Shown: positions 2,524 to 10,669 of the stretch, in pieces
Layout: the number at the start of each line of letters is the position of its first letter
Position numbering within the stretch: the stretch's first letter is position 1
Source: a bacterium
GTDB lineage: Bacteria > ARS69
Direction: 5' to 3'
Length of the DNA: 11,192 nucleotides
Assembly (NCBI GenBank): GCA_025774865.1
Contig: JALGZO010000209.1
Span: 1 to 11,192, forward strand
The notes under the pieces: generated by a model
Databases searched by the model: none
Seen by the model: the letters and a program-made list of their open reading frames with translations, nothing else
Told to the model about the DNA's origin: nothing
Made by a program: the position numbers and the translations under genes

Positions 2524-2555
2524 GCCATACTTCTACAACATTCCCACGGTACCGT
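2524..2555 (+). promoter_or_regulatory. Candidate response-regulator operator and promoter of the lipoprotein-RR-HK operon
   Basis: ACTTCTACAACATTC lies at 2529-2543, with TTC half-sites at 2531 and 2541 (10-bp period). A weak -10-like TACCGT follows at 2550-2555. The same arrangement, with the TA at identical distance, recurs before the Spy-like gene; the two 32-bp stretches match at 21 positions. OmpR/PhoB-family regulators usually bind tandem half-sites with a 10-11 bp period next to a weak promoter. Autoregulation is inferred. Confidence 0.55.
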
Positions 2556-2612
2556 ATCCCCGAGGCACGGACGCGGCACGGTGCTCTGCGAAGTGTCGGA
2601 GGAGGAGCTTCG

Positions 2613-3395
2613 ATGATCTCCCGGCGAATCGGACCCCCCACGATCGAGCGTCTCGCGTACGTGGCGGCGCTGTTGACTCTCCTTCACACGGCCGGGTGCG
2701 GCGGCTTACGGGTCCAGGCCGGCTGGCGTACCGAGCCCCTCCACCCGGACGGCACGATCTCGTCCTGGGCCGGAGTCGAGCCCGAGGAAGAGGATGGGCT
2801 GCAGCTCTGGGCGGTCAACGACACGGAGCACATCTACCTGCGTCTCTCGCCGGAGAATCCCCGCGGCCAGCTTCAGCTTCTTCGTGGCGTGACCGTCTGG
2901 ATCGGCAATGAAGAGGAGCGCGAGCTCGGGCTTCACCTAGCCGTGCCGCGCGAGGCTTTGCCGGAGCCTCCCGCCGGTGCGATTCGCGAGATCGAGGTTC
3001 TTGCGCCGTCCGGCATGCTCCGCGAGACGCTTGCGCTTCCGGCGGACGACGGTTTCGACTTGCGCCTCGAAAGGACGGACGTCCTCTCGCTGGTGGTGCG
3101 CATTCCCCTGAACGGGACCGGCACCGATGCGCTCGCCGTCGCGGCCCGACCCGGAGACGTGATCGGATTCGGCGTCGAAACCGATGAGCTCGACGATGGG
3201 ATGTTCACTCGGGGGGAGCGGGGCGGGTCTGGCGGGCCTCGTGGCGGTCCGGATGGCTCCCCGCGCGGCCGGCGCGGGGGAGGCTTCGGGCGTGGCGGAC
3301 CCCAGGGTCCGGATCCCATCGACATCCGGGCGACCCTCGAACTCGCCTCGCCCGTCGACGACGTCGTTGGGAAGGGTGACAATGAGGCGTCATGA
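2613..3395 (+). CDS. Envelope lipoprotein with CBM9/DOMON-like domain and Gly/Arg-rich C-terminal segment, first gene of a two-component operon
   Basis: 260 residues. The ATG at 2613 has GGAGGAG 5 nt upstream and begins a lipoprotein signal: a hydrophobic core (about 15-25) ending in the lipobox TAGC with Cys29. The mature part resembles the carbohydrate-binding family 9/DOMON-like beta sandwich, with a DGTISSW segment (about 47-53) followed by LQLWAVNDTEHIYLRL (about 64-79). That fold assignment is by pattern only. Residues 200-232 form a Gly/Arg/Pro-rich low-complexity stretch (positions 3210-3308), followed by a short beta-like end. The stop overlaps the response-regulator start as ATGA, implying translational coupling. 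In context it is likely an envelope input or accessory protein of the two-component system. It could bind a ligand or surface glycan, or simply be a regulon member; no catalytic motif is visible. Confidence 0.85.
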   Translation: MISRRIGPPTIERLAYVAALLTLLHTAGCGGLRVQAGWRTEPLHPDGTISSWAGVEPEEEDGLQLWAVNDTEHIYLRLSPENPRGQLQLLRGVTVWIGNEEERELGLHLAVPREALPEPPAGAIREIEVLAPSGMLRETLALPADDGFDLRLERTDVLSLVVRIPLNGTGTDALAVAARPGDVIGFGVETDELDDGMFTRGERGGSGGPRGGPDGSPRGRRGGGFGRGGPQGPDPIDIRATLELASPVDDVVGKGDNEAS

Positions 3396-4075
3396 GACCA
3401 TCCATTCTCGTGGTCGAGGACGATCGAAGGATCGCGGAGCTCGTGGCGAAGAACCTCGAGGCGGCCGGCTACGCGTGCCGGCAAGTACACCACAGTCGCG
3501 AGGTCGCGGCCCTCGTGGAGAGTCTGCAACCGTCGCTGATCGTTCTCGACATCATGCTTCCGGGGATCGACGGACTGGAGCTCACGCGGACGATTCGCCG
3601 AACATCGGAGATCCCGATCCTGATGCTGACGGCGCGCTCCGCCGAGAGCGACAAGATCCTGGGCTTCGAGCTCGGCGCCGACGATTACCTCACGAAGCCG
3701 TTCAGCACCCGGGAGCTCGTCGCTCGGGTTCGGGCCCTACTACGTCGCTCGTCGGGAACGGTTCGAAGCGACGCCCTGACTCGCGGCGAACTGGAGATCG
3801 ACCCTGCGCGACGTGAAGTCCGCCGGAGCGGCGAGACCGTGCCTCTCACTACGCTCGAGTTCGATCTTCTTCACTTCCTGGCGCAGCATCCGGGGCGCGT
3901 GTACAGCCGCGAGGCATTGATGGAGCACGTTTGGGGAGAGAACCGGGTCGTGGACGACCGTTCGATCGACAGCCTCATCAGCCGTCTGCGAAGAAAGCTC
4001 GAGTTCGATCCGGCTCGACCCGTCTACGTGACCACCGTGTGGGGTGCGGGGTACCGGTTCTCCGAGTCTTCCTGA
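3392..4075 (+). CDS. OmpR/PhoB-family (CpxR-like) response regulator
   Basis: 227 residues, a full-length two-domain regulator. The receiver domain (1-118) has the acidic pair Asp10/Asp11, phospho-acceptor Asp53 in VLDIMLPG, Thr80 in MLTAR and Lys102 in LTKPF. The winged-helix DNA-binding domain (about 128-225) ends with the typical transactivation loop and recognition helix (DDRSIDSLISRLRRKLE) and the C-terminal hairpin VYVTTVWGAGYRF. The start ATG overlaps the lipoprotein stop (ATGA), with GAGG 4 nt upstream. The kinase begins 22 nt after its stop. It probably activates its own operon and the Spy-like gene through the shared motif at 2529 and 5626. The OmpR/PhoB class is certain; the CpxR comparison rests on the Spy/CpxP-like partner. 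Confidence 0.96.
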   Translation: MRPSILVVEDDRRIAELVAKNLEAAGYACRQVHHSREVAALVESLQPSLIVLDIMLPGIDGLELTRTIRRTSEIPILMLTARSAESDKILGFELGADDYLTKPFSTRELVARVRALLRRSSGTVRSDALTRGELEIDPARREVRRSGETVPLTTLEFDLLHFLAQHPGRVYSREALMEHVWGENRVVDDRSIDSLISRLRRKLEFDPARPVYVTTVWGAGYRFSESS

Positions 4076-4097
4076 TGGTCCCGGCGGAGGAATCCCG

Positions 4098-5594
4098 ATG
4101 AGGCGGCTCCTTGCACCGAGTCTCTTTTGGACCTTCGCAGGTGCTTTTCTCCTCGTGCTGGTGACGGCCACGCTACTGCAGGGGCTGATCATCTTCATCG
4201 TCGTAGAGCCGATCGGGGCGCGGTTTGCGGCGGGGCGCGCGGACGACGTTGCCCGCGACGTGGCCGGGGCTCTGGGTGAGCTCGAAGAGGCGACCGAGAT
4301 GGCGGTCGCCGGTGTTCTCCGTGAGCACCGGCCCGATCTTCGAAGCCTGGTCGTTGTGTTTCTTCCCGAGAACGGACCCCCGATCTTCGATCGCCCCATG
4401 CCGCCTCGGGCCTTTGCGGACATGGGTCTGGTACCCCTTCTCGGAGCGGACTCGGCGCGTGTACGAGCGTTCCCCGGTCCTCGGTCCGGTCATCGCCCGC
4501 CCCGGGAGGGGGGCCGTGGTGGGCCGCCCCGATTCGACGAGGAAGATCGACTCCGCGGGCGTTCCGAAGTTCTCGCGCGCTATCCGGTCAGCGCACGATC
4601 CGGGCTGCGAGGCGAGGTGGTGGTGACTGGGCGTCGTCACCCCTCCCGACTCTGGCCTGAGCACACGCCGCGCCCCATCCTCGTCTTCTTGCCGGTGGCG
4701 ATCGCTTTGGCCGCGGCCGGCGGTCTCTTGCTGTTTCGTGTTCTTCTGCGGAGGCTGCGTGCCCTGGAGGAGCTCGCGGGACGGGTCGCCCGGGGAGATC
4801 TTGCGGCACGCGTCGTTGATCCGGGAAGTGACGAGATCGGCCGGCTGGGGCGCAGCTTGAACCTCATGACCGAGAGTCTCTCGGACGCGCGGGATCGAAT
4901 CGAGACCCAGGACGCGCAGAGACGCCGCCTTCTCGCGGACGTCTCGCACGAGCTCGCGACTCCGCTGACGTCCATTCGCGGCTACGCGGAGACCCTTCTG
5001 GACCCGGGCGTTCCGAAGTCCGAGAGCGAGCGGACGGAATACCTCGAAAACGTTCTCGACGAATCGAATCGAATGGATCTTCTCATCCAGGATCTCTTCG
5101 AGCTCACCCGACTCGAAGCGGGCGCAGAGCGGCTCGAGCTCGAGCGTCTGGACTGGTCCGCACTCTGCCGCCGGATCGTGGAGCGTTTCGCGGCGCGCGC
5201 GAAGGACGCGGCGATCACGATCTCGTGGCGCGGCGTCGACCGCGCTGCCTGGGTGAACGCCGACGGAAGGCGTCTCGAGCAAGTGCTGGAGAATCTGCTG
5301 TTGAACGCGCTGCGCTATGTGCCTCGAGGTGGCGTCGTGGAGGTGTCGGTGGAGGATGCCGCCGCGGGCCACGTTCTTCGGGTGGAGGACGACGGGCCCG
5401 GCATCCCCGAGGATGATCTTCCGCACGTGTTCGATCGCTTTTACCGGGCCGACCCGTCCCGGACCGATGGCGGATCGGGGCTCGGGCTCGCGATCGTCAA
5501 GGAGATCGTCGCGCGCCACGGTGGACGCATCTTTGCCGCCAACCAGGAGGGTGGTGGGGCCGCGTTCCAGGTCGAGCTGCCTGCGGTCCCGTGA
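4098..5594 (+). CDS. Sensor histidine kinase (CpxA/BaeS-like architecture)
   Basis: 498 residues. The ATG at 4098 is chosen because GGAGGA lies 6 nt upstream and membrane segment 1 follows directly. Order: TM1 (about 9-36), periplasmic sensor region (about 37-192), TM2 (about 193-217), HAMP (about 218-266), dimerisation/phosphoacceptor domain with His284 in SHELATPLTSIRGYAE, and an ATPase domain with N box VLENLLLNALRY, G1 box VEDDGPGIP, F box FDRFYRAD and G2 box GGSGLGLAIVKEI. It senses an envelope signal and phosphorylates the upstream regulator. The periplasmic region contains an Arg/Gly/Pro-rich segment (about 126-146, positions 4473-4535) resembling those in both flanking lipoproteins. 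The third gene of the operon, 22 nt behind the regulator. The ligand is unknown. Confidence 0.96.
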   Translation: MRRLLAPSLFWTFAGAFLLVLVTATLLQGLIIFIVVEPIGARFAAGRADDVARDVAGALGELEEATEMAVAGVLREHRPDLRSLVVVFLPENGPPIFDRPMPPRAFADMGLVPLLGADSARVRAFPGPRSGHRPPREGGRGGPPRFDEEDRLRGRSEVLARYPVSARSGLRGEVVVTGRRHPSRLWPEHTPRPILVFLPVAIALAAAGGLLLFRVLLRRLRALEELAGRVARGDLAARVVDPGSDEIGRLGRSLNLMTESLSDARDRIETQDAQRRRLLADVSHELATPLTSIRGYAETLLDPGVPKSESERTEYLENVLDESNRMDLLIQDLFELTRLEAGAERLELERLDWSALCRRIVERFAARAKDAAITISWRGVDRAAWVNADGRRLEQVLENLLLNALRYVPRGGVVEVSVEDAAAGHVLRVEDDGPGIPEDDLPHVFDRFYRADPSRTDGGSGLGLAIVKEIVARHGGRIFAANQEGGGAAFQVELPAVP

Positions 5595-5620
5595 TCGTCG
5601 CCCCGCATTCCCCAGTCTCT

Positions 5621-5652
5621 GCCGAACTTCTGCCACATTCTCCGACTAGTGT
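5621..5652 (+). promoter_or_regulatory. Candidate response-regulator operator and promoter of the Spy-like gene
   Basis: ACTTCTGCCACATTC lies at 5626-5640, preceded by GCC and followed, seven bases after the last C, by TAGTGT (5647-5652). It matches the element at 2524-2555 at 21 of 32 aligned positions, including 13 of the 15 core bases, with identical internal spacing. It includes a clear 10-bp direct repeat of TTCT (5628 and 5638). It lies in the 96-bp gap between kinase and Spy-like gene, giving that gene its own promoter. Confidence 0.55.
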
Positions 5653-5690
5653 GGAGGCGTCGGCAGGAACGAACGGCGAAAGGAGAAGTC

Positions 5691-6812
5691 ATGGAAACGA
5701 TGCCGGCGCGGGGTGCCCTACGCTACCGCGCCCTCGCAACGACGGCAGCTCTGGGATTCCTGGTGTTCGCAGCCACGGGCTGTCTCGACGAAAGCCGGAA
5801 CCTGGATCTGGGGGCGGACCCGGCCTCGGCTGCCAACGCGAATGGAGAAGCTTGGGTCGAGGCTTGGGACTCGATCGCGCCCCCGGCCGTTCCCACGATC
5901 GACGAGCTCGAGGGCGCGCTCGGTCTCAGCGATGCGCAGGTGGCGGTCGTGGGGGATGCGCTGGAAACGTGGCGGTCCAAAATGGACGAGAAGCGCTCGG
6001 GACGCGGCCGTCGAGGAGCGGGAGACCGCGGGGATCGCCCGGGACACGGGGTGCCGGGTGGGTTTGGAGACTTCGAGCCTCCGCTACTCGGTTTTCTGGA
6101 GGCCGTGGTGCCCGTGCTCGAATCCACGCAAGTTACTGCACTCGCCGATCTTCTGGAGGAGAAGCGCGAGGACGCGCGGCCTTCGTTCGGATCGGGGGGC
6201 GGGCGGCCGCGGCGCGGAGGCCGAGGGGGCGGACCACTGGGTTTCGTCCCTCGTGACGTGGTCGCCGCGCTCGACCTGTCGGACCAGCAGCGCGACGAGC
6301 TTATCGAAGCTCTTCGCGGGAGCTTCGAGACGTTTCACGAGCTCCGGCAATCGTTCGCGGGAGGTGAGATCACGGCCGAGGAGCTTCGTGATCAGGCCAA
6401 GGAAACGCGCGAAGCTCTCGAGGAACGCGTGGCCGAGATCCTCAGCACGACCCAGTTCGATGCGCTCACGAAAGCGCTTGCGGAACATCGGGCGGAAATC
6501 GCGCAGCGCCGCCTCGACCATCTCGGGGAAGGGATCGACCGACGTGTGAGCTTCCTCGCCACCGTGCTCGAGCTCTCGGACGCGCAGAGGATCGAGGTCG
6601 AAAGCGCACTCGAGGCTTCCGTGGCCGAGCGGCGCGCGATCCTCGAAGGGCTGCGCGACGGAACGATCGAGATCGAGGAAGCCCTCTACCGCGGTTATCT
6701 GATCGCAGAGGCAGCGGCGGAAACGATTCGATCGGTCCTCACCGCGGAGCAGGCTTCGGTGTTCGACGACCTTCGTCGGCTCTTGCCGGGACACGGTCAC
6801 AAGGGTGTCTAG
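5691..6812 (+). CDS. Lipoprotein of three tandem Spy/CpxP-like (LxxxQ) units
   Basis: 373 residues. The ATG at 5691 has AGGAGA 4 nt upstream. The lipoprotein signal ends in the lipobox ATGC (Cys31), so it is membrane-anchored, unlike soluble Spy and CpxP. The mature part is predicted largely helical and holds six LxxxQ motifs in alternating pairs: LSDAQ 79, LESTQ 143, LSDQQ 196, LSTTQ 251, LSDAQ 295 and LTAEQ 350. Spy/CpxP proteins have one pair of LTxxQ motifs per roughly 140-residue chain, so this looks like a triplication. Flanking residues also align between units (for example VAEILSTTQFDALTKAL with IRSVLTAEQASVFDDL). Gly/Arg-rich linkers lie at about 103-126 and 168-183. Likely role: periplasmic chaperone or metal/stress-responsive negative regulator of the adjacent kinase. 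Family assignment is good; function is inferred from family and position. Confidence 0.88.
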   Translation: METMPARGALRYRALATTAALGFLVFAATGCLDESRNLDLGADPASAANANGEAWVEAWDSIAPPAVPTIDELEGALGLSDAQVAVVGDALETWRSKMDEKRSGRGRRGAGDRGDRPGHGVPGGFGDFEPPLLGFLEAVVPVLESTQVTALADLLEEKREDARPSFGSGGGRPRRGGRGGGPLGFVPRDVVAALDLSDQQRDELIEALRGSFETFHELRQSFAGGEITAEELRDQAKETREALEERVAEILSTTQFDALTKALAEHRAEIAQRRLDHLGEGIDRRVSFLATVLELSDAQRIEVESALEASVAERRAILEGLRDGTIEIEEALYRGYLIAEAAAETIRSVLTAEQASVFDDLRRLLPGHGHKGV

Positions 6813-10561: not shown

Positions 10562-10669
10562 ATGGGAGACAAGGGCAAGAAGGACAAGGACAAGGGTCAG
10601 AAGCAGAAGAAGAAGCGGCAGCAGGAAGAAAAGCAGAGGAAGAGCGACAAGCAGCCGAAACCGCGTTAG
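10562..10669 (+). CDS. Lysine-rich 35-residue small protein
   Basis: The peptide is 35 residues with 13 Lys and 3 Arg and no hydrophobic side chain after Met1 apart from two prolines; it begins MGDKGKKDKDKGQKQKKK. Ribosome-binding site AAAGGA lies 8 nt before the ATG. Composition this biased in a frame with its own Shine-Dalgarno and an upstream TATATT box is unlikely to be noise. I recall similar MGDKG...K-rich small proteins in diverse bacteria, without known function. It should be disordered and strongly cationic, so it could bind RNA, DNA or ribosomes; that is inference. It stands alone, 192 bp downstream of the divergent start of the 84-aa gene and 309 bp before nuoA. Confidence 0.7.
   Translation: MGDKGKKDKDKGQKQKKKRQQEEKQRKSDKQPKPR

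Follow-up and report, generated by a model that had tools for sequence, protein, structure and literature searches.

A shared direct repeat stands before a two-component operon and before the adjoining gene for a Spy-like protein in the window, by which we mean the whole 11,192-nt stretch of DNA analyzed here, and this repeat is probably an operator bound by the system's own regulator. The repeat lies at a fixed distance from a -10-like hexamer, is kept at the two corresponding promoters of a second genus, and is rare in the genome. The first-pass annotation of this DNA had already proposed a shared operator and the circuit it implies, and both stand; the half-sites it assigned within the operator do not. 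A single relative with the orthologous locus was enough to swap those guessed half-sites for the real repeat. The result is a testable operator, defined at the sequence level and with bases to mutate, for a putative envelope-stress two-component system in a phylum sampled by five genomes. Otherwise, the arrangement is a well-supported case of an OmpR-family circuit of the ordinary kind, autoregulated and with an effector in the periplasm, and the switch is of a type that is already well known.

Structure of the probable operator

Positions 2524-2555 and 5621-5652 align without gaps at 21 of 32 bases and have in common the core ACTTCTnCnACATTC (2529-2543 and 5626-5640), as the first-pass annotation had reported and as we confirmed by re-reading the letters. 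Its statement that the flanking intergenic DNA is dissimilar also held, with the best local alignment between these regions stopping exactly at the site ends. Site 1 is located in the 134 bp that separate the divergent starts of an M1-peptidase-like gene (2478) and a lipoprotein gene (2613), and site 2 follows the kinase stop (5594) and precedes the start of the Spy-like gene (5691). When these two intergenic regions alone are considered, the site pair has a P of 0.010 to 0.016 against dinucleotide shuffles. Among real intergenic pairs from the same genome, 4% attain 21/32 identities, 3% attain 13/15, and 0.3% attain the observed composition-weighted score, in which A/T matches in this GC-rich genome are given weight. 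Given that real intergenic pairs reach such similarity at these rates, and that the pair was picked after looking, the statistics of the window pair taken alone (P about 0.003 to 0.04) are modest and only suggestive. It is the conservation in a second genus that makes the shared operator convincing.

We aligned the window sites with two sites from G001, a genome of the same family and another genus. What the four sites conserve is a direct repeat of 11 bp, which begins approximately 7 bp upstream of the core. On the plus strand, the operator of the operon promoter spans 2522-2543 and consists of ACGCCATACTT (2522-2532) and CTACAACATTC (2533-2543), of which the second is a poor repeat; the operator of the spy-like promoter spans 5619-5640 and consists of CTGCCGAACTT (5619-5629) and CTGCCACATTC (5630-5640). 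A -10-like hexamer on the same strand starts 6 bp past each repeat (TACCGT at 2550-2555, TAGTGT at 5647-5652). The aligned sites read ACGCCATACTT-CTACAACATTC-CCACGG-TACCGT and CTGCCGAACTT-CTGCCACATTC-TCCGAC-TAGTGT in the window and CCGCCATACTT-CTGCCACACCC-GGATGC-GAGGAT and CTGCCATAATT-GTGCGACATGG-ACCCGG-CATCTT in G001, giving the four-site consensus CTGCCAyAyTT-CTGCCACATTC, 6 bp, and then the hexamer. The pair of TTC half-sites proposed earlier, 10 bp apart, is present in both window sites but absent from both G001 sites, and we discarded that model. The sites instead contain half-sites of approximately 7 bp with a 4-bp spacer, arranged as a direct repeat with an 11-bp period.

The operators were delimited by the four-site alignment together with a lag analysis and a leave-one-out matrix. 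Lag 11 was the top internal repeat among lags 5 to 15 (23/44 unit matches over the four sites, column-permutation P 0.009). Each held-out site was the top position of its own region, and no equal score was found among 123,384 positions sampled from the genome, although this test is only partly independent because the G001 sites were aligned knowing the others. The box appears to take the place of a -35 element and lies 6 bp before the hexamer in 4/4 sites, as at phoA. Within the hexamer, A2 and T6 alone are invariant; the TAnnGT noted by the first-pass annotation is present in both window sites, but over the four sites only xAxxxT remains. A2 and T6 are the most important positions of the -10 element. 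As -10 elements for sigma-70, the hexamers are poor, and a consensus scan found no sigma-70 -35/-10 pair. Transcript starts are predicted near 2561 for the operon and near 5659 for the spy-like gene. A terminator scan found nothing. When the DNA was folded computationally, site 1 showed nothing notable and site 2 showed a weak structure (z -1.8).

Conservation in a second genus and occurrence in the genome

Among the five genomes analyzed for the phylum, G001 alone has an orthologous two-component system, and the system was found in only two genomes (the window's and G001). The C-terminal part of the regulator is 76% identical between the two, and the kinase is 52% identical over its full length. 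Regulators in other phyla are only 40 to 50% identical and were left out of the motif work. In G001, the Spy-like gene adjoins the kinase gene, and the regulator gene is cut by a contig end. The exact core ACTTCTnCnACATTC is absent from G001. Within the interval between kinase and spy-like gene, both window sites separately align best at one position, GCCATAATTGTGCGACATGG. The box there is GCCATAATTGTGCGACAT, which matches the window-only consensus at 12 of 16 positions (approximately 0.01 to 0.02 such matches expected by chance in the interval) and is a weak site.

The other G001 site, GCCATACTTCTGCCACAC (contig C320, 2864-2881), was found blind by scanning the five genomes with a three-site pattern. 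It is located 48 bp upstream of a lipoprotein-homologue gene that is truncated at the contig end, and it matches the window-only consensus at 14/16 positions (≤1e-3 expected by chance in the interval). The homologue, which was located via the box scan and was not picked up by the protein search, is 31% identical to the window lipoprotein over 58 aa (E 1.5e-5, partial). Because this promoter is on a separate contig, which breaks off within the lipoprotein homologue, we infer the link between the operon box and the G001 regulator from synteny. The box is present at both G001 promoters (spy-like and lipoprotein homologue), in line with the earlier expectation that it would be kept upstream of orthologues. 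The window's own genome also contains a paralogue of the lipoprotein (contig C244, L044 8255-9055, approximately 37 to 41% identical) that has no box and is not beside a two-component system; thus, the box goes with the two-component locus rather than with the gene family. The gene that precedes the operon box in G001 encodes a co-directional cupin-like protein (L281, 2472-2831), whereas the window has the divergent M1-peptidase-like gene at this place.

In the 4.7-Mb genome, the exact core occurs twice, at the two window sites, and the core plus -10 pattern with ≤3 mismatches matched only these two sites genome-wide (reversed control, 0). With ≤2 mismatches, the core had 96 matches in the window's own genome, compared to 49 for the reversed control. 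The 96 matches include both exact sites; 88 are genic (approximately 92%), counting site 1 through an over-extended ORF start, and 8 are intergenic. Since this intergenic share is close to that of the genome (9%), nothing points to a wide regulon at ≤2 mismatches, and for finding a regulon the near matches do no better than the genomic background. Pattern scans of the five genomes likewise yielded no further confirmed site, contrary to the suggestion that the motif would serve to find the whole regulon. The 18-mer consensus with ≤3 mismatches had three matches in G000, five in G001, and one in G002, and none in the five genomes other than the four operator sites was confirmed as a promoter. 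The match at L126 looks like the beginning of a coding sequence, those on G001 contigs C415 and C110 are within called genes, and those on contig C24 of G001 and contig C24 of G002 have no promoter assignment. The genome-wide scans were pattern scans, with the matrix run on the 123,384-position sample, and the assembly is a fragmented draft with 92.65% completeness and 8.3% contamination. Because no further sites were found, the regulon looks local.

Proposed circuit and its relation to known systems

We consider it likely that the two-component system encoded between the sites uses both of them as operators and that its regulator activates its own operon and the spy-like gene. The phosphorylated OmpR/PhoB-family regulator (3392-4075) would bind the two 11-bp repeats as a head-to-tail dimer; the repeats would stand in for the -35 element, and RNA polymerase would be recruited to the poor -10 hexamer 6 bp downstream. 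Site 1 would drive the lipoprotein-regulator-kinase operon, producing positive autoregulation, and site 2 would drive the Spy-like periplasmic chaperone. On sensing envelope damage, the kinase would thereby raise both the sensor and the effector. In this scheme, we infer the identity of the binder, its phosphorylation, activation over repression, and the envelope-stress signal. A single operator/promoter before the operon and the Spy-like gene, kept at both places in G001, fits the autoregulation and effector control put forward by the first-pass annotation.

Other readings of the sites are less probable. The two intergenic regions may resemble one another by chance and have been chosen post hoc, as the 4% of real intergenic pairs attaining 21/32 identities would allow; however, the box stands at both orthologous promoters of a second genus, one of them found blind, and the leave-one-out matrix recovers the held-out sites, so we regard chance as close to refuted. 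It is also very improbable that the repeats represent a promoter type of an alternative (ECF-like) sigma factor, with the shared letters as -35/-10 contacts. Although GAACTT is present at approximately -35 in site 2 and the hexamers suit sigma-70 poorly, the AAC of ECF -35 elements is missing from site 1 (ATACTT) and from the G001 sites (ATACTT, ATAATT). Moreover, approximately 18 bp are conserved with an 11-bp repeat, which is over-long for a -35 element, and the genome pattern scan found no further such promoters.

A third reading accepts the sites as operators of this regulator but has it act by repression or as a switch (negative autoregulation with activation of spy only), or has it control the M1 gene as well. 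The position of site 1 in a divergent 134-bp intergenic region is compatible with this, as is the ability of a promoter-overlapping box to repress or activate. Nevertheless, the spacing between box and hexamer is equal at 4/4 sites and is that of the activating layout of phoA and mdtA, and we think such a mode of action unlikely. Control of the M1 gene is further opposed by G001, in which the link is not conserved because the co-directional cupin gene precedes the box there.

Activation by the system's own regulator can be compared with known OmpR-family systems. Regulators of the OmpR/PhoB family occupy direct repeats as tandem dimers (PMC4832192), and 7-bp motifs with 4-bp spacers have been described for M. 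tuberculosis PhoP and for the pho box, CTGTCAT-N4-CTGTCAT (PMC4832192, PMC4415409). The PhoB pho box of E. coli phoA has a layout of 11+11+6+hexamer, equal to that of the window sites, and its half-site is CTGTCAT compared to CTGCCAy here. The hexamer at phoA is TATAGT, which we take to be the phoA -10 element. The window locus differs from the PhoB system in that no phosphate gene is nearby and the regulator scores 246.5 bits against a PhoB equivalog cutoff of 296.2.

In E. coli, BaeR binds in front of both spy and the mdtABCD-baeSR operon (PMC7657598); these targets, a spy gene and the operon of the regulator itself, are of the two kinds proposed here. The sites share TTCTnCnnnATT, a possible link to the BaeR box, TTTTTCTCCATDATTGGC (PMC3799227). 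Applied to the region upstream of mdtA in E. coli, the four-site matrix scored best exactly at the BaeR box (P 0.003 to 0.034 against shuffles, depending on the matrix form), which aligns as CCTCCATTTTT-CTCCCTTATTG-GCTGGC-TACACT, with the hexamer at equal distance. In the phoA region, the top position of the matrix coincided exactly with the pho box, and in the acrD region it fell at or within 1 bp of the BaeR-like sequence, but the known spy box of E. coli scored weakly and was not the best position. We treat the E. coli matrix results and the shared specificity as suggestive rather than as proof. Compared to BaeSR, the window operon has a lipoprotein gene and no RND pump genes, and the regulator scores 231.8 bits against a BaeR equivalog cutoff of 380.

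CpxRA is an OmpR-family system beside the Spy/CpxP-family gene cpxP, with common control. The window likewise has an OmpR-family system adjoining a Spy/CpxP-family gene, but neither intergenic region in the window contains GTAAA or TTTAC, as would be expected of the CpxR box GTAAA-N5-GTAAA, and the regulator is farther from CpxR than from BaeR, PhoB, or MtrA. We doubt that the wiring of the regulator to its own operon and spy, together with the operator (a CTsCCAynTT repeat 6 bp before the -10 element), has a common descent in this uncultured phylum and in the BaeR system of Proteobacteria. If it had, this would be an envelope-stress circuit whose operator sequence persists across phyla.

Gene products of the locus

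The upstream neighbor of the operon is the divergent M1-peptidase-like gene (760-2478, start 2478). The first gene of the operon, on the plus strand like those that follow, encodes a putative lipoprotein of 260 aa (2613-3395) and has an ATGA overlap with the regulator gene. The lipoprotein had no match in Pfam or NCBIfam, and its structure model is unusable (mean pLDDT 35.5). The response regulator (227 aa, 3392-4075) has a receiver domain (Response_reg, PF00072, 1.5e-28) and a winged-helix domain (Trans_reg_C, PF00486, 1e-28), both well above cutoff. Its nearest solved relative is BaeR (E 5.5e-56), and it falls short of the BaeR, PhoB, MtrA, and CpxR equivalog cutoffs; by these domain and family scores it is classed as a generic OmpR/PhoB type. 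The sensor histidine kinase (4098-5594) has HAMP, HisKA, and HATPase_c domains.

The Spy/CpxP-like periplasmic protein (5691-6812) contains six LTXXQ-type motifs in three tandem units. It scores below the Pfam gathering score for LTXXQ (PF07813, 21.2 compared to 24.3 bits, E 4.8e-4), and its G001 orthologue, in the same place, scores 15.5 bits. That orthologue (L038, 14788-15624, minus strand) has approximately four to five LTXXQ motifs in two units, compared to three units in the window. In the predicted all-helical model (mean pLDDT 63.8), the six motifs are at or near helix starts, and the helical units are consistent with three Spy-like repeats. Foldseek returned no match to this model at E 0.001. 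The best VIA match was 5io8, a helical bundle (Z 9.1); Spy is not in the VIA-align listing, an absence that does not exclude Spy.

Gly/Arg/Pro-rich linkers of approximately 40 residues are present in the lipoprotein (3209-3328), the sensor region of the kinase (4440-4560), and the Spy-like protein (5990-6110), and the G001 kinase also has such a linker. Unrelated to the operator, a small lysine-rich ORF, MGDKGKKDKDKGQKQKKKRQQEEKQRKSDKQPKPR, is located at 10562-10669.
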